Shown here in pieces: positions 17,118-38,111 of a stretch of DNA of 64,000 bases. Every line of letters begins with the position of its first letter. Position 1 is the stretch's first letter. Source of the stretch: Obelidium mucronatum (lineage: Eukaryota; Chytridiomycota; Chytridiomycetes; Chytridiales; Chytriomycetaceae); the NCBI GenBank assembly GCA_025765595.1, contig JAIVFH010000005.1:434001-498000 (forward strand), given 5' to 3'. The notes beneath the pieces were generated by a model. That model did no database searches. It was given only the letters and a program-made list of their open reading frames with translations, and was not told the origin of the DNA. The position numbers and the translations under genes are program-made.

Positions 17118-18802
17118 ATGACATCCCACACTCAAGCCCCTTCCAACACTGACATCGACATTCCCTCGTCGCCGCTGCTCGCGCCTTCAATCGCAAATCC
17201 TCGAACACAAAACCTGACATTGCCCCCTGCTGATGCAGTTGTCCCGCTGAACGCCACGAAGCAAAAAGCTGTCAACAGGAAGAATCAAACACCACCACCC
17301 AGATTTAAAAACATTCCACGCGAATCAGAAACAACGTCTCAGCTCGGGATCGTCCAAGAGTGCAGCCGATAGTGTTGTCCAAGATGCACTCGAAAGCTTC
17401 TGTAGTAGCAATCCTGGAATCAACTCGGAATTTATGGAAAAGTACAAGCTGACTTCTCAGCTTGGGATCGGTGGTTTTGGTTTTGTTTGTGGAGCATTGA
17501 GGCGTTCGGACAACAAATCAGTTGCAGTCAAGTTTATTGTGAAACAACGGATCACTGCCTGGTTTATCGATCAAAACATTGTATCAATTCCGCTTGAAAT
17601 TCATGTGCTTACAGAGTGTGAGTTTGTAAAACTGATTGATCTTGAAGTTTCGAAGTAACCCCGATTGGTACAAACACAGATTCATCACCAAAATATCATT
17701 CAATTTATCGAATACTTTGAAGACAAAAAGTACTTTTATCTCGTGACAGAGTTGTTTGGAAGTCCGTGGGGAAAGGAAGGAACCCGTGCGCATTCTCGTA
17801 GCGAAAACTCAACCGATTCAGTCACATCAACTGGCGCCATTTCAAGACTTTCAGGAAAAGAAATTGCAGAGCAAGCTGAAAAGCCTCAGCTCCCCCCTCA
17901 ATCACCTCATCTTCTCATAACACGGATGAAGGCTCAGAAACGGGAATTCCCACCAGATCGGTGCATTCCAGAGAAAGTGGAAAATCGGAACCCATTGTTG
18001 GCAACAGAGGAGTGAAACGCACAACCTCCGTTCACAACCAGAACCAAAAGCGCGTGACACTGGTTAAACACAAGGATCAGCACCTTCAAAAATTCTCTGA
18101 TCTCGTTCGATCTGTTTCTGCTCCAGTGCGTCTCTTTTTTTTCACTCTGCAGTTTTAATCGTGTAATTTATTTTTATACCAGAATATCGCATTCCTCAAA
18201 CGAATTCCATCCATGGATCTCTTTGAATGCATTGAAAGAAACGACCGCCTCCAAAACGCCATGGCCCAACACGTATTCCGTCAAATTGCCCAAGCAGTCC
18301 ACTACCTCCACACACACAATATCGCCCACCGAGACCTCAAGGATGAAAACATTGTTATAGACGAACACTTTAAAATCAAGTTGATTGATTTTGGATCTGC
18401 GATCGTGGAAGACGAAAACGCTGAAGGGGTTCATTACCATACTCAGTTTAGGGGGACGTTGCAATTTGCGCCACCTGAAGTTTTGTCTGGATTCCGGTAT
18501 CGAGCAAAGCCGGCAGATATGTGGGCGTGTGGAGTATTACTGTGAGCCTTCTTTTTGTTTTTTTCTTTGTTTGGATGCAACTGATTCCAAATCTTAAACA
18601 TGGAAACTACAGTTACACAATTTTGAGTGGGGAAACGCCATTTTCATCAGTTAACCAAGTAATTGCAGAACCTTTCAAGAATCCTCGTTATGAATGTGAT
18701 CCAAATGCCATTGATCTCATGAATGCCCTGTTGGCAAAAGACCCTAAGAAAAGACTGACATCACAACAAGTGCTTGAACATGCATGGCTCAAACAGAACT
18801 GA
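17118..18802 (+). CDS. Serine/threonine protein kinase, PAS-kinase (PSK) like
   Basis: Starts at ATG 17118 with a Pro/Ser-rich leader. The kinase domain begins YKLTSQLGIGGFGFVCGA (Gly loop, about 17440-17490). It continues AVKFIVKQRI (catalytic Lys), IPLEIHVLTE, HQNIIQFIEYFE and YLVTELFG. A low-complexity Ser/Lys-rich insert of about 100 residues follows the hinge. Then come MDLFECIERND, HRDLKDENIVID (catalytic loop), LIDFGSA (DFG), GTLQFAPPEVLSG and the C-lobe ending WLKQN at TGA 18800-18802. The kinase sequence, including the spacing after the catalytic loop, resembles PAS kinases; I see no PAS domain in this short N-terminus. Several short introns are implied; those inside 17800-18180 are unresolved. 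Confidence 0.8.
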
Positions 18803-18973
18803 TACGAGTGAAAAACAAAACAGATACGAAATTGGGAAGGCAGAATGTTTTGCGAACTTTTTCAGCCAAAAAAATAAAAGTGCGAAGGTTTTTTGCTTAA
18901 TCATGCTTTTTTGCCTTTAACTTCCTCTCTCCTCCCAATAAACTCAGTCAAAAGTTTATAATAAAAATAAATT

Positions 18974-21900
18974 TCAATAGTCCTCATCCATCAGTCTGGC
19001 TGACCAGACTCGTTCCGCGTTCTCCAATACATTAAAAAGTCCATTCATCATCTCCCCCCTATCCCAGTCCTGTGAAAATCGAAACACCACACTACTTAGA
19101 GCAACTCCAAGGGCTTCCAAATCCGCAACTGATAAGTTGGATGTCTTGTTCAAGAGAACTTCCTCAAACCGGTTCAGATTTTCTTCGTCCACCAACAACT
19201 CTCTTTCGGGTTCAAGTTCCACAGGTTCCATGATCTCCATTGGATCTATGCAATATAGGTAACAACGATTCGGTCAATAAAAATTAAAAATTAATAAAAA
19301 AATTAAAAACAAAGAAAAATCATAGAGTCAAGTTACTCACCGGCTGTCACCAGGCTCTCCTTTGGCTCTTTGAGTTCCTCGTCAAAGATTTGTACAGCCA
19401 AGTCCTCATCTGCAAGAGAAGCCTCACAATCCGATAAATCGTCGTTCTGGACTACTGTTTCAACAGGTTCAACAGGTTCAACGGGTTCGACAGGAGCAGA
19501 CAGAATGGATTCCTGGCTCACAGTTGGTGCAACAGAGGCGTTCACAGCAACAGGTTCTGCTGTGACCTGTGCACAGGCAGCTACAGAATCTCCCATCACA
19601 ATATCTTCGTCTTGACCATTCTTTTTCTCCTTCTTTCCTGGACTCAAGGACAGCCGTTGAATTTTCAGCGGTGGTTTCTACCGCAGGTATCAAAGAGGGA
19701 TTTTGCTGAAACTTCCGCCTCCTTCTCGTCGTCATCATCATCGTCATCGTCTATAATCACACGAACAGCTTTTCGAGGCGACGGATTCACTGGCACATCT
19801 TCGTCATCGTCATCCTGATTCCCACTTTGAGGAGCAAAGTTTGCGTTGTCACCCTCCTCAGTATCCATCATCACTGCGTCGTCACCACCCGCACCCGCAG
19901 CCTCAGCGCCATTTCGTGCTGCGGCTTTCAGTCTCCATTCTTCCCTCTCCATCTCAGCAAGCCGCTGCCGTTCCCGCATTTTTTCTTCATACTTCTTGCC
20001 GTTTCCGTTTCCGTTCTCGATCTAATTTATAGTGCCTTCGCTCCCGACCCAGCATTGGTAACCCATTGTTTTTTCGTTGTTGGTTCAGTAATCGGCAGCG
20101 AAGCGCTGATTGTTGTAACTCCCACACAAACTTGGGTTCCTTCTTTTTGAGTGTGTTGATGTAGGTTAGGAAGTTGTCTCTGAGATCATATGCCTTGTTT
20201 TGTTTGTTTGTTTGTTTGTTCAGGATATTTGTTTAGCAATCATCCAAAAAAAAAATTAATAATTAAAAAAGAAAGCAACAACACTCAACAAACCTTTCCA
20301 ACAATCGCCGAAGAAGACTCATTATACTCCTCAGCGCTATCAACAATACACTCAAAATCATCCACAAAGTCATCCACAACCGCATACTGATCGTCATTCA
20401 CATTCCACAAGAGCGTTTCCAAGTCCATCGGTCGCGTTACAACGTTATAGTAGTCGGGGAATTGGTCAGGGTCTACAGGCCTGTGGAAGTCATTGAACCG
20501 ACGGTTTCGCTTAATGTCGTTGACAATGAAACGGAGCTCGATTCGCAGTTGGCGGCGGAGGCTTTCGTCATGGTCAAAGAGGGCTTCGATTTCGGCGGTT
20601 GTTAGTTCACGAGGTGGGGGGCTTGCGGCTCGGGCTAGTGGGGCAGGGCGTTTCGGTTTGGGGAGGCTCTCGCCGCCTCCAGTCTGGGTCTGGGATCGGC
20701 GAGGCGGCTTTTTAACGGACGCAATTAACTCGGAAAAGAATTCCTTTCGCGATTGCTGTTCCAAGAAATCAAGAAGACAAAGGAAAAGGATAAGCTTTCC
20801 CAAAGCAAATCCTTCAAAGAAAAAGAAAGCGAACCTCATTCGGACAAGTGCTTTCAATTACTCGTTTCCATCCCTCAATCCCAGACGCAGACCCCAACCT
20901 TCCTTGAATAAGCCGCCTCAGCTCCAGCTGAAGTCCATCAAACTCTTGTTCACAAGTTGCAAGAATCATCACCGGGTTCATGGGATCCCTTTCGAGCAGG
21001 GATGTGAAAATAAACCTAGCCGCTTCCGAAAGCGATTCCCACCATAAATCAATATCGGGAATATAAAGCACTGCTGGCCGATGTCGCTTCATTTCATGAA
21101 AGAGTTGAATGATGGCAGCGTCTGGGGTGCGAGATGAGTCGTTCATGAGTGTGCTTAGATCCAGGGATTGGATGTACACTTTCTGGGAGTCCAAACGCTC
21201 CAAAGCGGCGGGACCGAGTAGTCGCTGGCCCATACCTGTCTTCCCACAAATCAAGAGACGTGGCTGGAATGAGAACGAGTATTGGAGGTACGGGTTGGAT
21301 GCAAGTAAAATCGGGTTTGGAGTTGCAGTTCTGGTGGACCCCCCTTCGTGAGAGTCTGCCATGAAACCAGAGACGTTTGCTTCTGCGACTTGTTTCAGTA
21401 AAGGACATAGAACATCGATGGACGCAATGATATCATTGTATGGCGCTCGAACAAGTGCTTCAAGATGTGCGGGTATAGGGTTGGAATATACAGTTGAAGT
21501 TCTTTGCGTTGATGGGATAATATCTGTTTGGGGATTCAAAAGAAGGTGCGTTACAAATCTTTTCTCAAAAACCGAGACAAATGGATTTGCTGCCAACACT
21601 TACGCTTCATGCTCTTTGCAAAATCTTCAGCGCATACAAGAATCTCGCCAGTATTGATTTGGAGTTTGTGTCCACTATCATAAATTTCTGGATACGATCG
21701 CCGAACGGCATTGAGTGCAGCCTCGGTGCAAAGGGCTTTCACATCAGCACCGCAATAACCACGCGTTGATTTCGCCAAGTCATCCAATAACTTCTCAGAA
21801 ACGGGAGGGGACCATTTTGCTGTTGTGATTGAAATGATCTTTTTACGCGCTGGTTCTGAAGGAAGTGGGAAGTACAGTTCACGATCAAAACGGCCGGGAC

Positions 21901-24551
21901 GACGAAGTGCTGGATCGATCGCATCGATTCTGTTTGTCGCACCAATAACGACAACCTGGCCTGTGTTCCATCATGGTCAGTTTCGCTTGTAGGAAGGAAA
22001 CGACAACAATAGTCTCACCTCGACTGTCCAGACCATCCATCAATGCCAGCAGCGTGGAAACAATGGATGCGTGAATTTGGTCTTGTTTACTTGAGCGAAC
22101 AGGAGCCAACCCGTCAATCTCATCAAAGAAGATGATTGAAGGTTGATACGTTTTGGCTTGTTCAAATAGTAACCGCAGCTGCCGTTCACTTTCACCGACC
22201 CATTTAGAGAGCACATCCGCTCCCTTTCGCATGAAAAATGCGACTTTTTGAGTAGACGTGGAGCAAGAAGAGGCGAGAGCGCGAGCCATGAGAGTTTTAC
22301 CAGTTCCTGTTTTCCAAAAACAAAAACAAAACAACAAATAACCATCCATATAAGAAACATCGGCCGAAAAAATATGTTGCCAACTCACCAGGCGGGCCAT
22401 GGAATAAAACACCTCGTGGTGGAGTGATCTGAAAACCTGAAAAGATTTCTGGATACAAGAGTGGCATAACAACCATTTCCTTCAGTGACCGAATATGGTC
22501 TTCTAAACCACCAATAGAGTCAAAGTTAACTGATGAAGTAGAAATCGGGTCAGTATCTGCGAGATCTGGGAATTTACTCGGGTTATTAAGTCAATCCACA
22601 TCCAACCAGAATGTGGAATACCTTTCCCTCCATTAGGTCTGAATAGTCTGGCATTTTCTTCATACTTTTTCTTTTCGTCGTCCGGTAGATCTTTGAAGAT
22701 TGCATGCTCTTGAGCTCTTAGAATCTCCATGATGTTGACAGGATCAATGCTATTTCCAGTGTCGCGTTGTCCACTTCGACCACCTTCGTAGCGACCACCA
22801 CTTTTCCCATGAGCGGCTGGAGTCTCATCATCGTCCTTTCAGAATGGTTAATCCCTTAAACGCCCATAACAAGCCAATGAAGACTCACAGAGTCCAGTTC
22901 TCCGTCATTAAACTTCCCAGGTGTATAATGAAACGAGCGTTCCGGAGATCCCCGATCCCGCCTTCCTTCCCTGCCATAACGTGGTTGGCCGCGGTTTTGA
23001 AAACGACCAGCACTTCTTTCTGCCAAATGAGCTTCCAATGGAGCACCTGTCCACCCTGATCCAGGATGCAATTGCCGAGAATAATCCACCTCTTTTTTAG
23101 GTCTCAGTCTCCTCCTCGGCGCGCCATGAGAATCCACTTCAGAATGATCCAGATCAATACCCAAGAAGTCATCCAAATCCTCGTATTCCCCTGCGAAGCG
23201 ACGTTGCCGCTGTGCGGCTCGTGCAGCTCGAGAGTTTCTAGCTTCTTCGCGTTGCTTTTTTTCGAGTTCTTTTTGGGCTTCAGAGGCAATGTGGTCTTCG
23301 TTGGTACTGGTGGAACGTCTGAAGGAGGACGTGCGGGGACGAAGATTTTGACTTCTAATAACTTCTAAATCATCTTCATCGAGTTCATCCTTATCGCGGC
23401 GAGAAGATCGCTGTCGTCTGGACGAAGAAGAGGTATAACGGTTTGTCGAGTGAGATGAATAGTAACTGCGAGAATCACGATGACGGCCACGGCCATTTGG
23501 CTCCTCGTCCTCATCAGATCCATTCTCTTCATATTGAAAGTCGTTATCAGCTTCAGGATCATCCACCTCTACTTCTTCATCCGATTCAATGACGCGTTTT
23601 TTGTTGCGTGGAGCAGTGGGAGGCGTGTCCAATTGTTGCTCTGCGTCCCCGTCCTCGCCAACGCCAACGACAATATCAACGTCCGGTTCATCAATTTCAT
23701 CTGTGTTGGGTCCTAGTTTGAGAGAAATCTTTTTGATTTTGGGTTTGGCTGGCTCTGATGTTGAAGTATTCTGGTCGTCTGTTTCGACAACATTCCTTCC
23801 AGCATTCACGTCATTCAAGGCCTCCTTCTTGAGTTCCAAGTCCTCGCCATCGTCAGGAGTCCTCCCACGCAGAGAAGCACGGCTTCCCCGCCTCTGCGAA
23901 ACAATTGTGTTTTCAAGTTCATCGGCCGGCGCCGAACCCGACCGTCGGCGCGTCTGGCGGCCGATCCCGTCGGCGGCGTAGCGCAGCGCGTCCTCGTGCT
24001 GGCTGGCGAGGCTGCGCGCGCTGCGGCGCGTTGCGTACGGCTCGGCTGGATTTGGCGTCGAAGCGGCCCGGCTGCGCGTCGGCCGGGCGGAGCGCGCGCG
24101 CTGCTCGAAGGCGTCGCTGGCGGAGTCTGAGTCTGAGTCGGCGTCCTTGTAGCGCGGCCGCGCGCGCGTGCTCCGAAGCGGCGGCGGCGGCGGCGGCGCC
24201 TTGCGCGTGCGCAGCGCGTACGCCTCGTGGCCCGGCGGCGCCTGGAAGCGGCGGCGCCCGGCGCCTTCGGACTCCGACTCGGACGCCGACGCCGACGCGG
24301 GCGACGCCGACTCGGACCCGGCGGCTGCGGTGCGCACGCGCTTCGACTCGGTCGGCGGCGACGCGGTGCGGCGGCGCTTCTGCACAGAGTACGCCGGGAA
24401 TGTAGAAGGAGAAGGCGCGGTTAGCGCGTGTTGGTGGTGGTCGTGTTGGTGCTGGTGTGCCAACACAAAACAAAAAATAAAAGAAGCAACGTACTTCGAC
24501 AGCCTCAGTGCCGTCAAGAGGATTGTTGCCCTTTTCCATGGGGCCTAGCAT
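18974..24551 (-). CDS. YTA7: ATAD2/Yta7-type AAA ATPase with bromodomain
   Basis: Chromatin histone chaperone ATPase. ATG at 24549-24551, TGA at 18974-18976, about ten exons. Exon 1 encodes MLGPMEKGNNPL... and splices (GTACGT donor) to KRRRTASPP. The N-terminal 500 residues are acidic/basic low complexity. The first AAA module has Walker A TGTGKT (about 22310), Walker B IIFFDEIDG (about 22120), then GLDSRGE, RPGRFDREL and CGADVKALCTEAALNA. The second AAA module is degenerate (LICGKTGMGQRLLGPAAL, AVLYIPDIDLWW). A bromodomain follows (FHRPVDPDQFPDYY...PMDLETL, about 20370-20500). The C-terminus is acidic with a PVEPVEPVE repeat near 19470. Order AAA1-AAA2-bromodomain is diagnostic. The block 23930-24400 is very GC-rich. 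Confidence 0.9.
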
Positions 24552-25260
24552 TTCAGCGTGTGTTGGGGAAGCCACTGTGGCAGGCGTCAGCGTGTTTGTG
24601 GGGTTTGGTGTACTTTGTTGGACTTTCTCAAGCCAAGCAGTTCAAGCTTTTGAAGGAGACTGTCAGCGGTAAGAAACAGCGAGTGAAGATGGAGAAGCGG
24701 CTGCGGCTGTTTAGAGACTGGCAAAGACAAGTTTGGAACAGGGTCTTTTTTGTATTTTTCTCAGCAAGTCTTTACACACAACCTTCAACCACCATGCAAC
24801 GTGCTAATAAACACAACCACATCTTTTTCCTGCAACTCGTATTCGAGCTCCCCCTCCAGCTCCCAATCCGCGTCGTTTATCAGCACCAATATTCCTGGCC
24901 GCCTGATTGAAACAGCCCGTCAATGCAATTTCATGTTAGATGTGTTGTTTGTTGTTTGGATTTGTCGAGTTAGATTTCTTTTTTTTTTGAACAGCATGTC
25001 TCTTGCAAACAGAACACACAACGTACACAGAATCCCCTTGAACAAATAGTTCTGGACGTTCCTTCAAGTAGTTGTCTTTCGTGTGGGCGATGAGATCTCT
25101 CATTGTCTTTACACTTTTTGGAAGGACAACTTTCAACGACCTTGTGCCATCAAACAACAACTCCATGCCGCCACTATGAAAAGCATTCCAACAACCAAAA
25201 AAAAACCAATAATGAGATCAAAAGCTTGTTGGCAGTTCAAGACTTTTTTTTCAAACCTGA

Positions 25261-25267
25261 ACTGAAG
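25261..25267. repeat. Target-site duplication, left copy
   Basis: ACTGAAG directly precedes the left terminal repeat and recurs at 30511-30517 directly after the right one. If the element ends are drawn one base further in, the duplication becomes 9 bp (AACTGAAGT). Either reading is consistent with staggered-cut transposition. Confidence 0.9.
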
Positions 25268-25724
25268 TTAGGCTCAGTGTCAGCCTTTCTCTTTTTGGCT
25301 CGTTGACAAAAAAATAAAATTTCGAGCTTGCGAGAAAGGCTGATGGGAAATCTTGCATTTTTGACCCAAAACGCGACAGCACCACCGATGTAGCTCACCA
25401 ACGCTCCGCCGGATCGCTACCAGCTTTGGTGGACATACTTTTGGGACAATTTCTCAAGGTTTGTCCGTGCGGTTTTCTGGGATTTCCGTTTATTTAACGT
25501 ACTTGAAACTTTGACAGACCAGCGCCTGCCGAATATGAGCGCAAACACAATTTCGATACGTGTGTCGGTTTGCGCAGCCATTTTTTATGCTATTCGCGAT
25601 TTCTGATGGCTTCGGGACTGTTGGCTGACTCGCTCTTGTTCTTTGGACCGAACTCGTTGAATATGCAAAACGTATGGAAAAAAATGAATCAAAATATCAA
25701 TAATATCATTAATCAATGCCACCA
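25268..25724 (+). repeat. Left terminal inverted repeat (457 bp)
   Basis: Identical by eye to the reverse complement of 30054-30510; it ends where CACCA is followed by GG here but AA on the other side. It contains an internal inverted repeat, TCAGCCTTTCTC (25280-25291) and GAGAAAGGCTGA (25332-25343), with a 40-base loop. It also contains the ATG of the helicase (25606), so promoter and start codon lie inside the repeat. Confidence 0.93.
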
Positions 25725-27600
25725 GGTTACTCGAACTGATCTGGGATTTGAAGCACATGATTTTCAAGTTGGCGCTGTTGCTGCTTTGCTTTCAGGCAAA
25801 GATTGTGTGATCATTCGAGCTACTGGTGGGGGGAAAACTTGGGTCTTCTGTCTCCTTGCGAAAGTGCATAACCTTCTGAAAGGTACAAACACGACCTTTG
25901 GCGTAAGCAAGGAATGCAGTGTCGTCTATATTGTGTGCCCATTGATCGCTGTCATGAAACAACAAATGGATGTTCTCAATACTCAGAATATCGGGTTGAG
26001 GGGTGCAGCTCTGGGCTCCCTTGATTGTGTTCACTCGGATAACGAAGCCACCATTGGTCTCATAGCGTCAAGTCAAGTACATGTTGTGTGGTTGCCGCCA
26101 GAGTATTTGGTTGCAATGACGAAGGACTCAAAGGACCATCGAAAGCGTCTTGAACTCTTCAAAAAAACAGCAATTGCGTGGATTTTTGATGAAGTACATT
26201 TATTCATGGATGCTGGTGATGTTTGGCGTGATGCATATCAAGTTTTGGAGGAAGTTCGGCCTCTGTTTCCAAACACTCCAATTGGTGTAGCTAGTGCATC
26301 TATTCCTCGAACAGACTTCTGCAAAATGCTCCGCCGACTCCGGATCCGCGAGGATGCGGTTCATCTTGTTGGAAACGTTGACCGGCCAAACATCTTCATT
26401 TCGGTACGCAACCGTACCACCATGTCCCATGATTTGGGGTTCATCAAGACTGCCTTTGATACAAAAGTATTCGATCCTCAAATATTCCCAGTTCTTCTTT
26501 ACAATGATGATAAGAAAGTATTGGGAAGCATCATTGACTTCATTATTGGACCAAACAAGCCATGTCCTCCAAATCTTCTCAAGTTCACAGCTTCATCATC
26601 TGATACACATAAAGCTGGTGTTATCTTAATATTGGCAACAAGACCTGACCTTGTACAGCTCTTTGGTGGAACTGGCGCATTTGGAAATGGACTCAACCCT
26701 TCAAATATTGTAACGGTCATTCACTACCGACCCCCGAAATCCTTCTGTAACTACTTCCAAGAAATTGGTCGGGCTGGAAGAAATGGGGCCAAGGCCAAGG
26801 CTATTTTGTTCATGAAGGATGCAGATTTTGAACTCAAGAAGAAGGATTCTAAAGCAATCGGAGTCGCAATGATCAAAAACAAGGAAATTTATTTGGATTT
26901 TATTTACGGGAAGGTTGTTTGTGGGATACGCGTTCCAACATGCCGGCGAAAAGGGTTTGAGGCTGTTTTTGAAGGTGGTTGGCCAGTAGAGACACTTGCA
27001 CACTGTTGTGACATATGTGATCTGTCCAACGGTGTTGACAGCGGTGATGATAATCATGTGGAAATCGGGATTGATGGCAGAAACGGTAGTGTTGATGATT
27101 GTATTGCAGTGAACGCAGTCAATAGTGAGGTGGTGATGGTGCACAATCGAAGTGCTTGCCGTATGACTGCTGCAGAACAAGCCGAGTTATGTAACTCTCT
27201 TCAAGCAATTCGAGTTATTTTGCTCGCAGAGTGCTCTTTCGAATACGGAATGATAATCTTTCCGCCATTCCTCATCAACTCAATCTGTGCCGATGCTAAA
27301 GCTGTTGCTGAGAAAACTTTCCAATGGCCTGTGGCATTTCACCCTGATTGGGTCGACAAGCTGTCGGTTTGCGTGGTGGAGCACCTTAACAAGTATTCGA
27401 AGAACACAAACAATCCAAAAGCTCGGCTGTCTGCAAGTTCAGCAGTGATTCGAAGGCACGAAAGCCCGTCTGTTAAAGATCTGCGCAACTTTGCAGCCGT
27501 AAATGGAGGGGATATTCAGCTGGGAAAAGTAGCGTTGAAGCAGTGGATTAAGTTGACAAAAAAAGATGAGGCTCTTGCAGCCTTTTTATTACAAAACTAA
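25606..27600 (+). CDS. RecQ-type DNA helicase of the transposon
   Basis: 664 residues from the first in-frame ATG (25606), which lies within the left TIR; in-frame ATGs at about 25663 and 25684 are alternatives. Superfamily 2 motifs appear in order. Q-like FEAHDFQVGA is at about 48-57 and Walker A ATGGGKT at 72-78. CPLIAVMKQQ is at about 111-120 and DEVH (for RecQ DEAH) at 195-198. SAS is at about 230, GGTGAFGNGLN at about 354-364, and QEIGRAGRNG at 385-394. A RecQ zinc-site pattern follows: CRRKGFEAVF...CCDICD (Cys 446, 467, 468, 471). No HRDC domain is seen; the C-terminal 190 residues are unassigned. The catalytic residues look intact. It could unwind transposon ends or aid repair of the excised site; that role is inference. 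Confidence 0.88.
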   Translation: MASGLLADSLLFFGPNSLNMQNVWKKMNQNINNIINQCHQVTRTDLGFEAHDFQVGAVAALLSGKDCVIIRATGGGKTWVFCLLAKVHNLLKGTNTTFGVSKECSVVYIVCPLIAVMKQQMDVLNTQNIGLRGAALGSLDCVHSDNEATIGLIASSQVHVVWLPPEYLVAMTKDSKDHRKRLELFKKTAIAWIFDEVHLFMDAGDVWRDAYQVLEEVRPLFPNTPIGVASASIPRTDFCKMLRRLRIREDAVHLVGNVDRPNIFISVRNRTTMSHDLGFIKTAFDTKVFDPQIFPVLLYNDDKKVLGSIIDFIIGPNKPCPPNLLKFTASSSDTHKAGVILILATRPDLVQLFGGTGAFGNGLNPSNIVTVIHYRPPKSFCNYFQEIGRAGRNGAKAKAILFMKDADFELKKKDSKAIGVAMIKNKEIYLDFIYGKVVCGIRVPTCRRKGFEAVFEGGWPVETLAHCCDICDLSNGVDSGDDNHVEIGIDGRNGSVDDCIAVNAVNSEVVMVHNRSACRMTAAEQAELCNSLQAIRVILLAECSFEYGMIIFPPFLINSICADAKAVAEKTFQWPVAFHPDWVDKLSVCVVEHLNKYSKNTNNPKARLSASSAVIRRHESPSVKDLRNFAAVNGGDIQLGKVALKQWIKLTKKDEALAAFLLQN

Positions 27601-30062
27601 ACAATAAAGCCGCCAACTTCTTCTTCCAATAACAAAGTATCCTCTACTTCTGGCTCCTCAACACTCAGCAGCCTATTTTTATTGATACGCTGCTCCACGT
27701 AGCCTGACGCCAAAAGTTCATGGTATCCAATTTCAATAGGTTTCTGAATCAAGAAGTCGTTTGAAACAATTTTCCCTGGACTTTGAATCAGGTTCAAAAC
27801 ATCGAACAGAAACCCAGTGGCATTTGTTGTTGTTCTTACATCTTGATGCTCTGAGGAGGAATCACGTAAATCCAGATGGCGAAAGAGTGATTTCCTCACG
27901 TCGTTTGCAGTACTGGCAGTTATAGAGACACGAACTGTATGATTCCAGTTTTTATTTGATCCAGCGGTATCTTCCTTTGCTTTAAACGCACGGACATGGT
28001 GCTCCATTTCCAAGTCAGCAGCGTGGAATGTTGATGGATGTCCTTTGGGGTTGCAAAATCTGTTTTGAACACTGACGTGTCTGCATTGTTGTGAAATTTT
28101 GCTCTCAAGTTCAATAAGCTCCTGTAGTACTAGATGGCAATATCCTTTGCTGTAGAGCTTCAAGAAGGGGAGATACAGGCGATGCATTGATATAACACCA
28201 TAACCATCTCCGTGATGAATGCAGCTCCTGAAGACAACATACTTTAAGACATGTTTGATGAATTGCAAGCGGTAGTTTTCGAATGGAATCTTTAACTGTG
28301 GAAAATATTCCACTTGATTCTTTGGCTTTACTGCAGCTGACGGAGTCCACTTTGGGATGTAAACAGAACTGTCTAGAGTGGCGACCACAGCTTCCGAAAG
28401 TTGGAGAACCTTTACCAAAGTGTTCTCTCCACTGGAGAATAAAGCACTCTCCAGAAGTTCATTGCTCAAGACTTCCAAGTAAATTCGCATGGTCTCCAAC
28501 TGAGCATCACGCATATCAAAGAATTTGAACTTGTTTCCATTGATGCTTTTGTCTTTAAGGTACGCGTAGCTTCCCAGGGAGCCTTGAACCATTGTCCTTC
28601 CTTTTCCAAACATCTCCCATGTTCCACGAACAATAGCCATCTCCATATGAAACTCTCCTAAAGCTGGCTTAATATGAGATAATCGATCGGAATCATGCGC
28701 AAGGGAGTCGTGACGTCTTTCATGGATTGCAGAACGAATATTAGTGATTGTACCACCATCGCCAACAACAAGGACTTCCAGCAAACCATCCTTTGGAATA
28801 CTGAACTCTTCACCAAATTGAGAAAGAATCTTGATGGCGCCATCCGTTGTCATTTCTCTCTCAGGAGATATTTTGAGGGGTGAGATACCAACACAACCAA
28901 CGGGCCTTTTGGGATGCTCCAACTGAATTGGAAGGTGTTGAAAGTTGACATTGCTCTTGATGATTTCATTTGCAACAGCAAGAACCATTTGTCGTCTCAA
29001 CCAAGTGATATCACTCTCAGAGGCCAGCAGATCTGCGGGCGTTAACACGTTGATATCAATCTTTGGGGTAGTGGATGAGAGGGATGTGTCACAATCCAGA
29101 ATTTCGAAGTGGCCTCGCAATGTATGAGACTGGAAAGTTGTCTGGTTTGAAGTCGACTTTTGGTGTACTCGAAAGCTTCTTTCCACATTGTCAAATATCC
29201 ATGCTCTTTTGAAGCCCTCATATTGTACAGGAACTCGCGCAAGAATCTGAGATGCCATTGCATCAAGTCGGTCGTAAACTGTAGAATAAGACACCGACAG
29301 GCCATACGCTGAAAACAACTGTATAACATTCTCTGACGCTCCACCCATGTACAGGACTATTGCATTGTCGGACTGGAGATAGTTGTATTTTTGACTTCTG
29401 GAGTTCAAGAAAATAGAGAGAACTGACGCCAGTCTTCCCTTTTCCCCCTTTGTCAAAGTGAACACTGTTTTATATAAAAGTGTTCCTTCAGAATCCCAGT
29501 CTTCCAGCATTTTAGAAACGTCAAGTCGATTGTCAACAGTAGGAGTCTCGATTGAAACAGCAGCAAGCTGCTCCAAATCACTGGTAAAAATTTCGGGAAC
29601 TAGCGAAGCTAATAATTCAGATCTTATCGCAGGAGGGATATTTGCCAAGAGACTTTGCAAGACAGTCTTGTGTCCCTCAACATCCAGGGTCTCGAACTGT
29701 TTTATGATTGAGTCCATCGTCGCTTTATCCGCTAGTTGTGGATCCGCAATTCTTGGATTTGCGTAAATCGAGATACCAGCATTACGAGAGATGGTGTCGT
29801 AAGACGTGTTTATGCGAGGATGATTCAACGAGTCATTCAAGGAAAGGGCAGACGGGTTGAATGGGATTGCAATGTTTGCAGATGAATAAACTGACGCAAT
29901 ACCGCTTCTTTGAGGTTGAGCTTTCTTGGTGGCTGGAGTTAACATCGGTGTTTCCGGGTAAAACCGCTTTTGTTGACGATTGACTGGCCGAGAGTTTTCA
30001 TCAGTAGCAAGAGCAGTCTTCCGTTTCTTCTTGAAATGAGAAGGATTGCATTTTGGTGGCAT
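27597..30062 (-). CDS. DUF6589-like protein, candidate transposase
   Basis: 821 residues, ATG at 30060-30062 at the inner edge of the right TIR, TAG at 27597-27599. Residues 1-60 are basic (KKKRK, a likely nuclear signal). The middle resembles the fungal DUF6589 family. It has a hydrophobic strand ending IFDN (Asp 291) followed by Gln/Thr-rich turns. It then has VLVVGDGGTITNIRS (Asp 435), like the G-D-Q-L-T-x-x-R-I-R motif, then GEFHMEM (Glu 470, His 472), like the W/F-H-x-K-M motif. These spaced acidic residues could form an RNase H-like DDE site, which is a hypothesis. No zinc finger, HUH or tyrosine-recombinase motif is seen. The frame is intact over 2.5 kb. Family assignment is from memory of motif patterns, so moderate. 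Confidence 0.68.
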   Translation of the reverse strand: MPPKCNPSHFKKKRKTALATDENSRPVNRQQKRFYPETPMLTPATKKAQPQRSGIASVYSSANIAIPFNPSALSLNDSLNHPRINTSYDTISRNAGISIYANPRIADPQLADKATMDSIIKQFETLDVEGHKTVLQSLLANIPPAIRSELLASLVPEIFTSDLEQLAAVSIETPTVDNRLDVSKMLEDWDSEGTLLYKTVFTLTKGEKGRLASVLSIFLNSRSQKYNYLQSDNAIVLYMGGASENVIQLFSAYGLSVSYSTVYDRLDAMASQILARVPVQYEGFKRAWIFDNVERSFRVHQKSTSNQTTFQSHTLRGHFEILDCDTSLSSTTPKIDINVLTPADLLASESDITWLRRQMVLAVANEIIKSNVNFQHLPIQLEHPKRPVGCVGISPLKISPEREMTTDGAIKILSQFGEEFSIPKDGLLEVLVVGDGGTITNIRSAIHERRHDSLAHDSDRLSHIKPALGEFHMEMAIVRGTWEMFGKGRTMVQGSLGSYAYLKDKSINGNKFKFFDMRDAQLETMRIYLEVLSNELLESALFSSGENTLVKVLQLSEAVVATLDSSVYIPKWTPSAAVKPKNQVEYFPQLKIPFENYRLQFIKHVLKYVVFRSCIHHGDGYGVISMHRLYLPFLKLYSKGYCHLVLQELIELESKISQQCRHVSVQNRFCNPKGHPSTFHAADLEMEHHVRAFKAKEDTAGSNKNWNHTVRVSITASTANDVRKSLFRHLDLRDSSSEHQDVRTTTNATGFLFDVLNLIQSPGKIVSNDFLIQKPIEIGYHELLASGYVEQRINKNRLLSVEEPEVEDTLLLEEEVGGFIV

Positions 30063-30510
30063 TGATTAATGATATTATTGATATTTTGATTCATTTTTTT
30101 CCATACGTTTTGCATATTCAACGAGTTCGGTCCAAAGAACAAGAGCGAGTCAGCCAACAGTCCCGAAGCCATCAGAAATCGCGAATAGCATAAAAAATGG
30201 CTGCGCAAACCGACACACGTATCGAAATTGTGTTTGCGCTCATATTCGGCAGGCGCTGGTCTGTCAAAGTTTCAAGTACGTTAAATAAACGGAAATCCCA
30301 GAAAACCGCACGGACAAACCTTGAGAAATTGTCCCAAAAGTATGTCCACCAAAGCTGGTAGCGATCCGGCGGAGCGTTGGTGAGCTACATCGGTGGTGCT
30401 GTCGCGTTTTGGGTCAAAAATGCAAGATTTCCCATCAGCCTTTCTCGCAAGCTCGAAATTTTATTTTTTTGTCAACGAGCCAAAAAGAGAAAGGCTGACA
30501 CTGAGCCTAA
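30054..30510 (-). repeat. Right terminal inverted repeat (457 bp)
   Basis: Mirror of the left repeat. It carries the same internal 12-bp inverted repeat and the same embedded reading frame MASGLLADSLLFFGPN. Here that frame runs out after about 75 residues into the other gene, so it is not used for the DUF6589-like protein, which starts at the repeat's inner edge. Confidence 0.93.
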
Positions 30511-30517
30511 ACTGAAG
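30511..30517. repeat. Target-site duplication, right copy
   Basis: ACTGAAG directly after the right TIR, matching 25261-25267. It is part of URM1 exon 1 (codons for Leu5-Gln6-Phe7 on the minus strand). Confidence 0.9.
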
Positions 30518-30572
30518 TTCGACATTCATACTTATTTTTTTTGTGCGATGCTGAAAAAGCAAGCATCGAAAA

Positions 30573-31411
30573 ATGTTTCGCCATCAACTGCTTCAGATCA
30601 AACACCATCGACCAGCCGAGTCTTTCCTACTACTACCGCGATTCTATTCCTCCAAACTTCCAACTTTCTGTCCCGTTGAGTATTTATAATTGTATTTTGA
30701 ACCAACCAACCAAACCCACAACCAAAACATCATTCAAAACAGTACAAAACTCTCAACGTTTCAAAAACATCCGACGCACAAACAATCAAAAAGGCATACT
30801 ACGCCAAAGTATTCACTCTCCACCCCGATCGCCTCGCCGCTCTCCCCGGCGGTGCACCCAAACCGGGATCCCCTTTACACAAACAAAAAACCCTCGAATT
30901 CATGCAAACTGTAAAAAGTTTTGAAATCTTGAGTGACGTCAACAGGCGTCGCGAATATGACTTGGATTTGGCGAGAGGTGATACGGGGAGATATGCACGC
31001 GAGGCGGCCGGGAAACCGAGTAGTGGAGATGGACCGAGGCCCAATTATAACTGGGATCCAAGACACAGGAATCCATATGGAAAGACGGAGGGGAAGTATT
31101 CCTATGGATTTGATGGACCTGGTGGTGCGGCAGCGTATGATACTTATTATTATGGACCAATGAATCAAGGGCCAATTTATATGGCGAATTGGAAAGTGGC
31201 GATGTTGGTTGTTACAGTTGCTATGGTTGCGGGTAGTGGGATTTTTGTTTTTGCGCGGCGGCGATTGAATTATTATCAAGAAGCGCAACTGGAGCAAGAC
31301 CGAATTATTGCTGACTATTATGCGAGGAAAAAGGTGGAAGCCGAAACGCGAGGGTTTAAAGCTAGTATTGAGCATTTGCGATCTTTGGATGAATCAAACA
31401 AGGGTGAATAA
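30573..31411 (+). CDS. Mitochondrial membrane J-domain protein (Jid1-like)
   Basis: Hsp70 co-chaperone. Exon 1 (30573-30674) encodes MFRHQLLQIKHHRPAESF...RFYSS, an Arg-rich presequence with a typical cleavage region. A 68-bp intron (30675-30742) follows. Exon 2 (30743-31411) begins YKTLNVSKTSDAQTIKKAYY, continues KVFTLHPDR (HPD at about residues 61-63) and ends helix IV with SFEILSDVNRRREYDLDL. A transmembrane helix WKVAMLVVTVAMVAGSGIF spans about 184-205. The Lys/Glu-rich C-terminus ends at TAA 31409-31411; 256 residues in all. Its start is 43 bp from the URM1 ATG on the other strand, a divergent pair. The transposon lies on the URM1 side, so this promoter is close to an active-looking TIR. 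Confidence 0.83.
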
Positions 31412-31531
31412 ATTCGGTCATCCATTATATTTATTTTTGTGACCTCTGTTTAACAAGTATACTGGGAGTAAAATGGAATAAATGTTTAGCGAAGGGATAC
31501 AAGATTTATTGTATTCTTCCAGGCAGATAAA

Positions 31532-33399
31532 TTAGAAGTTGCCCTTCTTGGCGGCATCAATGAGCGAGCGAGAAATAATCAATCTCTGAATCTGCGAGGT
31601 TCCCTCGTAAATCATAAAGATCCTTGAGAGAATATTAGAAGTGAGTTAAAAAAAAAAGAATTTCAGAAAAAACTAACTTTGCATCACGCATCAGTTTTTC
31701 AACTGGATATTCGCTATTGAATCCATTACCCCCAAAGATCTGAACAGCGTCAGCAGCATTCTTGTTGGCAACTTCCGAAGCAACAGCTTTGGCCATTGAC
31801 GCAAGCAAAGTGTTTCGTTCACCATTATCGCGTTGCCAGGAAGTCTTCCAGACGAGTCCTCGAGCAGCTTCAACTCCCATGGCCATATCTGCAAGCATAA
31901 ATGAAATGGCTTGGTGCTCTGCTATTGCCTTTCCCATGGTCTTTCTCTCTGTAGTTTATCTTTTCTCAGTACAAATTTTCCAAAAACGAGGCAGAAAACC
32001 CACCGATGGCATACTTCAAAGCTTCTTCATAAGCTCTATATATTTAATTAGCATTGTTGTTTTGTTTGTTAAGTTGAAAAAAAAGAAACAGAAGAAAAAA
32101 CAGTAGACAAACCTCCGTGCAACACCAACAGCCGCACTAGCCACAAGAGGTCTAGTCGTATCAAAAGCACCCATAGCAAGTTGGAATCCCTTTCCAACGT
32201 CACCGATCCGGTTTTCATCGGATACCTCCACGTCTTCGAAACTAATTCCACGCGTGTCTGAGCATCGCTGGCCCATGTTCAGTTCCTTCTTTCCAACAGT
32301 GATTCCGGGCGCGTTTCCATCGACAATGAATCCAGTGAATGCCTTTCCTATTTTTTTTTATTTTTTATTTTTTTGGGAGGGGTGTCAATTTAAAACAAAA
32401 AACAGGAAAAGATAAAGATGTATGGGTTTCTATCTAATCTCTCACCAGCGTTTGCGTTGGGGTCGGTTTTGGCAAGAACAAAGTACCAGTTCGCTTTTCC
32501 TCCATTAGTAATCCACATTTTGTTTCCTGTGTTGGAGAAAAAAACCAGTCGTTCAACAACAACCACAACAACATAAATGTATATTAATATTTATAAAAGA
32601 GGCGGAGGAGGAAGAACCTGTGATGCTCCATGAGTTTCCCTTTTTAACGGCCTTGGTGGCGATTCCAGCAACGTCGCTTCCAGCGATAGGTTCAGTCACG
32701 CAATACGCGCACATCAAAGGCTCTTCCGTCATACGACCCAAATACTTTTTCTTCAACGCATCAGAGGCTCCAATAATAACAGGTGCTTCCTAAAAAAAAT
32801 AAACAACAATTAACGCGCTTTAGAGAACGATTCAGAGTATAACAAAAAAAAAAAAAAGAAGAAGAAGGGGACAAGAGAGAGAGCTACAAACCGCAAGACC
32901 GTTTGCTTCAGCAGCAGTTTGGATTCCTGAACACCCATACGCCATTTCTTCGCTAATCAGAGAACAGTCCAAGACACCAAGACCCAAGCCACCATATGCT
33001 TCTGGAACATGTGTGTTCAAAAGACCGACTTCCCAGGCCTTATATTATTGGGTTGTTGTACGTGTTTGTTATTGTTGGTGGTGGGTTGTTTTCGGTTAGG
33101 CAAGTTTTAAGGTGGAGGAGGGAGGTGACCTTCTTCAGGATTTCGGTTGGATATTCTCCAGTTCGGTCGTGATGAGCCGCGTTTGGTGTGATTTCCTTTG
33201 CAGTAAACGACTTTGCGAGTTCCTGGAGCTCGAGTTGTTCTGGAGACAAGGAAAAGCTGATGCGTGTGATTGAAGTGGAGGCAAAGGTACGCTAAGTTAA
33301 TCTTTTGTTTTAGTTTTGGAATATAAAAAATAGCAGTCCGAGCCGTAATACCTTTGCCGCAGCAAACTGTAACGACCGGGAGGCAATTCTGGAGAACAT
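31532..33399 (-). CDS. Medium-chain acyl-CoA dehydrogenase, mitochondrial
   Basis: FAD enzyme of mitochondrial beta-oxidation. Exon 1 (33352-33399) encodes [16 protein letters not shown], a presequence; exon 2 begins [19 protein letters not shown] at 33291. Later exons give [37 protein letters not shown] (FAD/substrate loop), [91 protein letters not shown], and a last exon ending [11 protein letters not shown]. The order matches ACADM-type dehydrogenases. It has about eight short introns, many AT-rich and lined with homopolymers, making it the most intron-dense gene for its size here. TAA is at 31532-31534. Confidence 0.88.
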
Positions 33400-33984
33400 T
33401 TTTTTTTCTTGTGATTTGTGTGTACACACACACATGGGACGTCTTTATTACAAACCAAACTTCCAAACTGTGTCTATGCGAAATCATATTCACGACTTTC
33501 TCAAATGTCTGGTGTTGTTAAAGGCTCAAAAAAGCGTTACCTGTCTGGTTTCTCCTACTTTTAAAAAGACAAGCTGGCTCAAACAAGAGAAATACTGGCA
33601 AGAGGCGAAGAAATCCTCCGAATTGTAATCAGTCTAGACCTCTATCTGAACCGCACAACTGTTTGCTTTGATTCTATGACTCACAGGTCTGATTGGAAAA
33701 AAAACTGGCTTGTCAAGTCGGAATCACCCAACAAGATCACCCAGCAAGAAATAACCATAGTGAAATCCAGAGCACTTGCTATGTTGCATATATAATTGCA
33801 ATTTCTACTAATGTTCTAGATTTCAGACTTTCATTGTTTCCAAAACCAGCCCAAGATCAACAGATAGATGATATTTCACGCGATGTGGTCCATCAGAGAA
33901 ACAGGAACTTCAAAAGCGCTCACAATCACATGTGTCGACTTTTATCCCACGTTGTACAGAAAAGTGCATATGGTTGATTGAAGG
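33400..33984. other. Unassigned stretch beside the acyl-CoA dehydrogenase gene
   Basis: Short plus-strand frames occur here (one of 64 codons from ATG 33437 to 33628). Splice-like sites at about 33690 could link MSGVVKGSKKRYLSGFSY-like pieces, but no frame is convincing and no family is recognised. It may be a small lineage-specific gene or its remnant. The dehydrogenase promoter must lie in the first part. Confidence 0.3.
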
Positions 33985-35426
33985 TGGAGTGGCGCAGTCT
34001 TCGGTTTTTTTTGTATGTTTACACGTTTCTTTCACCCACATATCCACGGCCGTTGAAATCTTGGGAGAGTTGGGCTTAAGGATAATCGCTCAGGCCTGAA
34101 CGACAACAAAAACCACCTTCATCTTCGAAACTCTTCGATAAGAAGACTTATGAAAGAAATATATACGACGGCGATCACCACCATTCGAAATTCTTCTCCT
34201 GAATTTTCATTATAGCCACATGTGTTCACCATGTTGGTTGTGGTTAAATCAACTTCTACACACAAAGAACCTCGCTGGACGAGCTGCCGTCAATCTGACC
34301 AACAATACAATCTCATTCAAATATATCAAGTTTGAATACGCACCTCGTTGAAAAAGTGCGTGATTAGTCTCGTTCTTCACGTGAAATCACCTCCTCCATC
34401 CAAACAAACAAAGGCCTATATACCGATGATCTCGCCAAAGTATTTTCTGGAATGTATTATAGGTTTGAATTTATTGGTGATTGGCACGGGGACTCTGCTC
34501 GTACATGCGTCACACATCAAACAAACTCCACTCTTCTTCTATAGAATCAGTATCCTTCGTACGGGCGGCTACCTAAGAAAATGAATCAAAATCTATAGTG
34601 AATTAGTCTTAGTAACTGATGAGCTCTGTCTCTGTATCTGATGGCGTCAGAGTGGAGCCTGCTTGTTTGCTATCGACTCTCCCAGTTTGGACCGAGCCGT
34701 CAGGAAGCCAGTCCACGCACTCAGATATACTCTTGAGTATATATTTGATCTTTGTATGACGTCAAAGATGGATGCAGATTCTGAGGACGCGAGGTGCAGT
34801 TCAACACGAGTTGAGCATGTTGTCCAAAATGCCATACTTTTTTCAACACCACCAACGCAACCACAAACCAACGCGTTTCCAGATTTAAAAAGCGCATTAG
34901 AACCGCAGTAGCGAGTTTAATCGGTTTGCAATAATCCTCGACGCGTTCTGATGCTTGGTTACCTCGTTTTCGGGTACATGCCAGATTTCAAGACCCGACA
35001 AACATTGCAGAATTGTCAAAAATCGAAAAAGGTATAAATAGGGAGCGTATCCCCCCCTCTTTTCTTCTCACAAAAAACTTCTTCTCTCTTAAAAACCAAC
35101 AACTTCTTCTCTCTTCAAGAACTCGGGAATTACCTTGGACAGCACTTCACCCCCCACCAACCCCTTCTTATTCTCACCAAGTCCCCTCCTAAAATAACCC
35201 TTAAAAACAACCGAAAAGACGGGCCCATAAATCAGACAAAAAGAAAGGGGGTTAAAAAAAACAAGCGAAAAGACGCACCACCAAAAAAAAAAAAAAAAAA
35301 AAAAAAAGGAAAAGGGGACTTTTGGTTAATTTATTTTACATTCATGGGTGCTTTGGTTTTAAGTTGGGCTCTGCAAGTGTTGTCCTTTCTGTATCTTATA
35401 TTTTGTTGCTTTCCTTTCTTTCTTCC

Positions 35427-35474
<48 letters not shown>

Positions 35475-35620
35475 CATTTCATTTTTTTTTAACGGAAGGA
35501 CGCGATCAAAAGGTAATGGCGGGATATGAGTTCAGGGCCTCCTCGTGGCTTCCGCTGGTAACAGGGTTCTCCCTGGCTGACACTGAACCGCTTTCGTTTT
35601 AATTTCTCATGTCTCTTTCT
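33985..35620 (+). repeat. Dispersed 1.6-kb repeat, copy A
   Basis: Same orientation and overall order as 46045-47645. The left kilobase is diverged but clearly related. Shared blocks include ATCAAGTTT-AATACGC near 34330, TATATACCGATGA near 34418, and GGACCGAGCCGTCAGGAAGC at about 34690. From about 34870 on, identity is very high. It includes AAAAAGGTATAAATAGGGAG (TATA box, about 35027-35046), a 25-base A run (35283-35307), a 47-base T run (about 35428-35474) and an end block CTCGTGGCTTCCGCTGGTAA. No long ORF, TG...CA ends or terminal repeats were found. Could be a solo-LTR-like, SINE-like or non-coding RNA unit. Confidence 0.8.
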
Positions 35621-35767
35621 TCGATCCTTCATACACTCCTCAAGAATAAAAGCATATTCTTCACATCAACTTATCTTCGGTTTAAAAAGGAAACATTAGT
35701 AAAGTAATAAGCAGAAAAGATAGAAAAGATTTCCATCCTCCCTCGCACCGCTCGCATTGCTCGCATC

Positions 35768-37420
<1,653 letters not shown>

Positions 37421-37478
37421 ACAAAAACTTGGATCGTTTGGTATTTATTGCTCGCGGTGGTTTGAAATATTCAGGACT

Positions 37479-38111
37479 CTAAATTTCACGAATGGGGGCC
37501 TTCTCTTGTGAAGATGCATTCAAATCCTTGTATGGTACAGATGTCAGGCCGTATTCTGAACTGACACTATCTGTTTCCCCCTTGTCTTCCCCCTTCGTAT
37601 ATTGAACACCCAACTGTTCATCCACGACAAGAAACAAGTTCACAAAGACAGCAAGAACCACGAAAATGGCATAGAACCAGATGTTGGTCAGTTGATTACA
37701 CAAGCCGCCTTCATATGGGTTCAGCTCTGCACCTTCCCCTCTTCCAATCCAGCACACCCAAGTGACATCCCAAAACAGAGTCGTTATGACAGACCACATG
37801 ATGAGACTGGTCGAATTGATCATCAGGAACCAGAACCAAAAGCGTTTCTTTTGGTTGACACCAAGACGATCCCACAATGCTTGATGCGCCCGGTCAATAC
37901 TTTGGGAGGCACAAAGAACAGTTGGAACTATCCAAGCAAATGTTGAAAGACCAGTGTAAATGGCTGTCATTAGGATACTTGGGGCAGTGTATGAGACACC
38001 AATCTCTACTCTGTGTTGAACAATCACCAGCGTTGCCATTCCACAAACCAAAGCGCTTGAGATTGCAATAAATCCAAAATGAAGAGCTGTGTATTGGAAA
38101 TAAGACATCAT
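37479..38111 (-). CDS. Multi-pass membrane protein, unknown
   Basis: 210 residues from ATG 38111 to TAG 37479. It shows about five hydrophobic helices (LHFGFIAISSALVCGMATLVI, PSILMTAIYTGLSTFAWIVP, FWFWFLMINSTSLIMWSVI, IWFYAIFVVLAVFVNLFLVV) and an acidic Ser-rich tail. This could be the C-terminal part of a larger receptor-like protein, since an upstream exon between 38112 and 38330 cannot be excluded. Convergent with DUS2, 58 bp between stops. No family recognised. Confidence 0.55.
   Translation of the reverse strand: MMSYFQYTALHFGFIAISSALVCGMATLVIVQHRVEIGVSYTAPSILMTAIYTGLSTFAWIVPTVLCASQSIDRAHQALWDRLGVNQKKRFWFWFLMINSTSLIMWSVITTLFWDVTWVCWIGRGEGAELNPYEGGLCNQLTNIWFYAIFVVLAVFVNLFLVVDEQLGVQYTKGEDKGETDSVSSEYGLTSVPYKDLNASSQEKAPIREI

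Follow-up and report, generated by a model that had tools for sequence, protein, structure and literature searches.

Two convergent genes, one for a RecQ-family DNA helicase and one for a protein with the Pfam domain DUF6589 (PF20231), fill the space between long terminal inverted repeats (TIRs) in the genome of the chytrid Obelidium mucronatum (Chytriomycetaceae; 48.3 Mb, 694 contigs). The locus raises the questions of whether this structure is a mobile element, what part each protein might play in its movement, and whether it belongs to a transposon group that already has a name. All coordinates below refer to the window, the whole 64,000-nucleotide stretch that was analysed (C5:434001-498000), unless a contig or locus is given.

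Structure and ends of the element

The element spans 25269-30509 (5,241 bp), with ends set by comparing copies and an unoccupied site. A first-pass annotation made from the sequence had described identical inverted ends of 457 nt. These (25268-25724 and 30054-30510) are indeed 100% complementary, but they include one target base per side, and the TIR of the element proper is a perfect 456 bp (left TIR, 25269-25724, + strand, starting with TAGGCTCAGTGTCAGCC; right TIR, 30054-30509, - strand). Comparison with other copies that have different flanks places the termini at TAGGCTC...GAGCCTA, and five of seven partial TIR matches elsewhere in the genome start at base 2 of the 457 nt; thus, we assign the outer base to the target.

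The target site duplication is 9 bp, AACTGAAGT, with its left copy at 25260-25268 and its right copy at 30510-30518 (both +), and it is present once at the unoccupied site. The 7-bp duplication reported in the first-pass annotation is not upheld by the comparison of copies. That reading arose because the repeated flanking block is ten bases long (AACTGAAGTT, at 25260-25269 and 30510-30519, outermost bases of the inverted repeat included) and the adjoining base chances to extend the inverted repeat. The two ORFs are intact and convergent, as had been stated, and encode a helicase of 664 aa (counted from the ATG at 25606) and a DUF6589 protein of 821 aa. No Rfam family was found at 18000-38000.

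AAA ATPase ORFs (PF00004) lie to the left of the insertion at 20814-22472, and the nearest ORF on each side (22856-24517 and 30902-31411) has no Pfam match at 0.01. GC content is locally high (about 60%) at 24000-24999, a stretch that holds three short tandem repeats (24287-24456).

Copies, mobility and unoccupied sites

Twenty loci were examined. Eighteen hold elements with both ends: two of family A, to which the window element belongs, 13 of its sister family B, and one each of C66, C93 and C180. The other two are an inverted duplication on contig C182 and, on C5, an old copy whose ends are not clean. Exact 9-bp duplications flank 15 of the 18 two-ended elements, all 15 different in sequence, and none was found around the remaining three (L026, L032 and L036). 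The two family-A copies (the window's and A2) have a single difference in 5,241 positions. Ten of the 13 family-B copies have one and the same sequence over 5,007 bp; of the other three, two carry a single-base difference and the third has 99.6% identity. Such identity could partly be an effect of repeat assembly; the copies are nevertheless separate insertions, since their flanks and duplications differ.

For four insertions the flanks were joined with one target copy and searched against the genome, and three of these gave an unoccupied counterpart. That of the window copy is on C281 (98% identity), where base-level alignment finds one AACTGAAGT and no scar. The counterpart of copy A2 is on C483 (78%; a single target copy, no scar), and that of a family-B copy is on C542 (92%; target present once and mismatched at one base, no scar); the search gave none for the fourth insertion. 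C281 may represent the second allele or a segment that was duplicated; for C483, a version of the region that has diverged is the likelier origin. In either case, of two contigs that are nearly identical one has the window insertion and the other lacks it, so the insertion is young. With a second copy, 13 sister-family copies and an unoccupied site in the same genome, the element is not a chance structure; it is real and mobile, and possibly still active. The earlier proposal of a two-gene TIR transposon therefore stands on perfect TIRs, a target duplication, further copies and an unoccupied site.

Repeated RecQ genes can also have a different origin. RecQ gene families occur in fungal subtelomeres, according to an excerpt of PMC4522978, and in Colletotrichum higginsianum one subtelomeric RecQ repeat also has HTH and DDE motifs (excerpt of PMC5576322). 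We give no credence to such a repeat, or to any other duplication that does not move, as an explanation here, and rejected it on the precise ends, the duplications, the unoccupied site and the dispersal of identical copies on separate contigs.

Several loci have unusual structures. L026 (on C283) and L032 (on C25) are family-B copies identical to the commonest sequence, yet they lack target duplications. Identical copies may have recombined ectopically or been misassembled with one another; compared by eye, a swap of flanks between these two does not account for the lack. On C182, L039:28-8701 is a 3.9-kb inverted duplication, 99.4% identical, each half of which has a DUF6589 fragment and an element end.

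Linkage of the two genes

Searched against the genome, the DUF6589 protein gave at least 31 matches at E up to 1e-3; merging by hand reduced these to 25 places (match counts are lower bounds). A RecQ match adjoins on the opposite strand, tail to tail, at 22 of these 25 listed places, so the two genes are linked in this genome, as the first-pass annotation had supposed. The three places without a RecQ match are all partial (the two halves of the C182 inverted duplication and one fragment on C194). Helicase matches without a DUF6589 partner comprise a strong one on C33, in two pieces (4.7e-31 and 1.3e-19) with an element end 355 bases away, and six short, weak ones on other contigs (5.5e-8 to 5.9e-4) that may be host helicases.

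Across the six families compared, identity to the window's protein is 21-35% for DUF6589 (two as partial ORFs) and 25-37% for the helicase. The most divergent DUF6589-RecQ pair is L040 (C5:186500-194500). In this pair the C terminus of the DUF6589 ORF is a Cys/His-rich tail that looks PHD-finger-like by eye, and Pfam gave nothing besides DUF6589 at 0.01.

The RecQ-type helicase

The helicase gene lies on the + strand at 25684-27600 (638 aa from the ATG at 25684), with upstream in-frame ATGs at 25663 and 25606; the frame is open over 25570-27600, and all three candidate start codons are inside the left TIR. The protein matches the Pfam domains DEAD (PF00270, 2.1e-14) and Helicase_C (PF00271, 5.2e-06). 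As the first-pass annotation had claimed, the RecQ character is borne out: the SF2 motifs TGGGKT, DEVH and QEIGRAGR and a RecQ-type Cys cluster were located, and the NCBIfam RecQ family model matches at 4.8e-39 (134 bits, below the whole-protein cut-off of 220). A profile of the helicases of the six families has BLM, WRN and RecQ chains as its top matches among the best 60 of 173. The RecQ_Zn_bind domain was matched in family B only (0.0094, under its cut-off). An inactivated helicase in family B was also considered, because two stops lie within the match, and was rejected: the 606-aa ORF ends before both.

The DUF6589 protein as a candidate transposase

The second gene is on the - strand at 27597-30062 (821 aa), with its ATG inside the right TIR. 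Its DUF6589-like identity, first read from a motif pattern, is confirmed by the Pfam match (1.7e-34, residues 339-739). Five residues are invariant in the DUF6589 proteins of the six families (D435, F471, H472, D683 and E687), and three acidic residues form a candidate catalytic triad. The first would be D291 (codon 29190-29192, -; motif DNVER), a D-N motif that follows a hydrophobic stretch in 6/6 families; in two of them it is found on a separate upstream ORF, which is probably an exon. The second would be D435 (codon 28758-28760, -; motif GDGGT) and the third E687 (codon 28002-28004, -; motif DLEMEH); the GD and D-x3-E motifs to which they belong are invariant in 6/6 families, and their spacing is 250-256 residues in all six. 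Hydrophobic stretches are visible by eye ahead of both D291 and D435, and such stretches before the catalytic acids are a trait of DDE transposases. We infer from these residues that the protein is a probable DDE-type transposase, with D291, D435 and E687 in the putative catalytic role; the first reading had likewise suggested a transposase.

The Pfam entry for DUF6589 gives no function, whereas the members found here sit inside mobile elements. No relevant paper on DUF6589 or PF20231 was found in the literature searched, nor a statement there that the transposase half of such an element is this Pfam family. A six-family DUF6589 profile matched no PDB structure at E up to 1, and the Pfam family had matches in 0 of 14 control genomes. 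Protein-database searches for relatives returned the window's own protein alone, and viral contigs scanned with this protein and two relatives gave no relative; the collections used in both cases were not built for chytrids, so that these negatives carry little weight.

The transposase region bears on two other assignments. Long TIRs and 9-bp target duplications are typical of Mutator elements, and those seen here (about 312-456 bp and 9 bp) would suit a helicase-bearing Mutator-like element. That assignment is very unlikely: no MULE/Mutator Pfam domain was matched at E up to 1 (search filters can drop weak matches), and the C/DxxH motif between the second D and the E, which an excerpt of PMC9587614 gives for MuDR and KolobokH and also for hAT, P and Dada, is found in only two of the six families. 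Between D435 and E687 these two have C-x-x-H and the other four have none; the only H that is invariant, H472, is preceded at -3 by G in five families and by S in one.

The same motif argues against a Kolobok-superfamily transposon with a RecQ helicase (KolobokH). Such elements pair a transposase with RecQ, as here, and have been found only in fungi, and one Kolobok of a red alga has RecQ on the complementary strand, according to the same excerpt (PMC9587614). The Kolobok duplications it describes are 4-bp TTAA, whereas in all 15 cases measured here they are 9 bp and varied in sequence, which leaves KolobokH extremely improbable. Duplication length and motif led us to reject both the KolobokH and the Mutator-like assignments.

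Terminal motif and subterminal palindrome

Searching the genome for the 17-base end TAGGCTCAGTGTCAGCC gives 47 exact occurrences and three with one mismatch, against none for the pattern reversed as a control. The end is exactly the same in families A, B and C66, even though identity to the A transposase is only 33% for that of B and 35% for that of C66; this suggests strong constraint on the end. The C66 element (L036:883-916) has the motif twice in tandem at its left end. Family-A-like ends are also present in two short derivatives, a 144-bp one on C376 (L041:517-660), which has a nested end inside and around which no target duplication was found, and one on C2 (L042).

An inverted repeat overlaps this 17-base end. 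It starts near base 12 (9 to 16), with its partner arm 30-60 bases inward, and was the best inverted repeat in seven of the eight ends tested, the left end of C93 being the one where it was not. In the window element it forms a palindrome at 25280-25343 (+), with arms at 25280-25291 (TCAGCCTTTCTC) and 25332-25343 (GAGAAAGGCTGA) that pair at 12/12 positions; it recurs at 30435-30498 (-), as follows from the perfect TIR. The score was reached by 0/200 shuffles for A, as it was for C180, the right end of C93 and C470, and by 17, 7 and 5 of 200 for B, C66 and the short element on C376.

Pairing between families was compared with arms placed by hand and ungapped. The C93 and C180 arms pair at 11 and 12 of 12 positions with their own partners and at no more than 8 and 6 of 12 with arms of other families, which is what concerted change of the two arms would give. 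No signal of co-changing arms was found among A, B and C66: the first arm of B pairs at 11 positions with the second arm of A and at 8 with its own, and the first arm of A pairs at 10/12 with the second arm of C66. Taken over these few families, there is modest evidence that the palindrome may be a protein-binding or foldback site.

The inner end of the TIR lies near a candidate helicase start codon in five families. The TIRs are 456 bp in A, 402 in B, about 356 in C66, 312 in C93 and 377 in C180, and the candidate Met codons are at element base 395 or 416, 402, 351, 282 or 300, and 380, respectively; earlier in-frame Met codons occur at 338 in A and 294 in B. Since the start codons of both genes are inside the TIRs of the window element, each TIR probably serves as promoter and leader of the adjoining gene.

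Proposed mechanism

A working model can be put together from these features. The DUF6589 transposase would bind the terminal TAGGCTC and the subterminal palindrome in each long TIR and excise the element, perhaps by a cut-and-paste rather than a replicative route. It would then join the element to a target with a 9-bp stagger, the repair of which would give the 9-bp duplications. The RecQ-type helicase may act by opening or processing DNA, either at the element ends or where the element has been joined to its target. As each TIR bears the leader and start codon of the adjoining gene, both genes probably share promoter sequence.

A wider reading, which we regard as unlikely, would make DUF6589 the transposase for a large group of fungal transposons, most of it so far unrecognised, whose ends would act through a subterminal palindrome opened by the element's own RecQ helicase. 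Such opening could, for instance, allow ends in single-stranded or hairpin form to be recognised or processed as the element moves. In C93 and C180, the families whose end sequences differ most, the arms differ together and still pair, so that the helicase would have a defined substrate.

DUF6589 very probably has a job here, that of a transposase, and fungal 'hypothetical proteins' with this domain could then be labelled as genes of mobile elements. The transposon, apparently young and carrying a helicase in a chytrid host, is also a good starting point for asking why RecQ is carried at all.

Comparison with known transposons

The AcademH lineage of the Academ superfamily was reportedly described by Kojima in 2020, from fungi and animals to judge by the title. 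The nuclease of the other Academ lineage, AcademX, is XPG, and XPG-bearing relatives of the DUF6589 elements were considered as a bridge to Academ. They provided no such bridge: there are 14 XPG_I matches in the genome, none on the contigs with DUF6589 matches that were compared, and hence no XPG-linked DUF6589 relative was seen. Some XPG_I matches are themselves repeated (C78:22364-26940, C356:1276-2825 and C9/C288) and are possibly duplicated host nucleases or AcademX-like elements.

In the passage of PMC10045372 on these lineages, AcademX has a nuclease in place of a helicase and duplications of 3-4 bp, unlike the window element with its helicase and 9-bp duplications, and AcademH has a helicase and duplications of 9 or 10 bp. 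Like AcademH, the window element is a fungal DNA transposon with TIRs (456 bp, perfect), a helicase and 9-bp duplications. Its helicase has both PF00270 and PF00271, which a passage of PMC10799480 includes in a list of helicase domains for AcademH, KolobokH or Helitron. The same passage gives AcademH as low-copy in fungi and names Basidiomycota, Ascomycota and Mucoromycota, unlike the chytrid host here.

A distinct, unnamed superfamily with a DUF6589 transposase, having gained RecQ independently of AcademH and KolobokH, would suit the lack of any mention of DUF6589 in the literature searched. We hold this to be decidedly improbable, as the published descriptions of Academ and AcademH agree with the element in the type of helicase, the 9-bp duplication, the TIRs and the fungal host.

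The first-pass annotation knew of no described TIR element with this gene pairing. That claim is contradicted in print: RecQ helicase was listed in Academ by a 2013 paper citing Kapitonov et al. (PMC3627910), and excerpts of PMC10045372 and PMC9587614 describe helicase-bearing AcademH and RecQ-bearing KolobokH. The novelty of the pairing thus very probably fails, the element matching a named superfamily. What is new is the probable transposase role of DUF6589, the chytrid host and the subterminal palindrome. With considerable confidence, we consider the window element a DNA transposon that is autonomous and has been active recently; its most likely place is in the AcademH lineage, to which it is likened through published descriptions.
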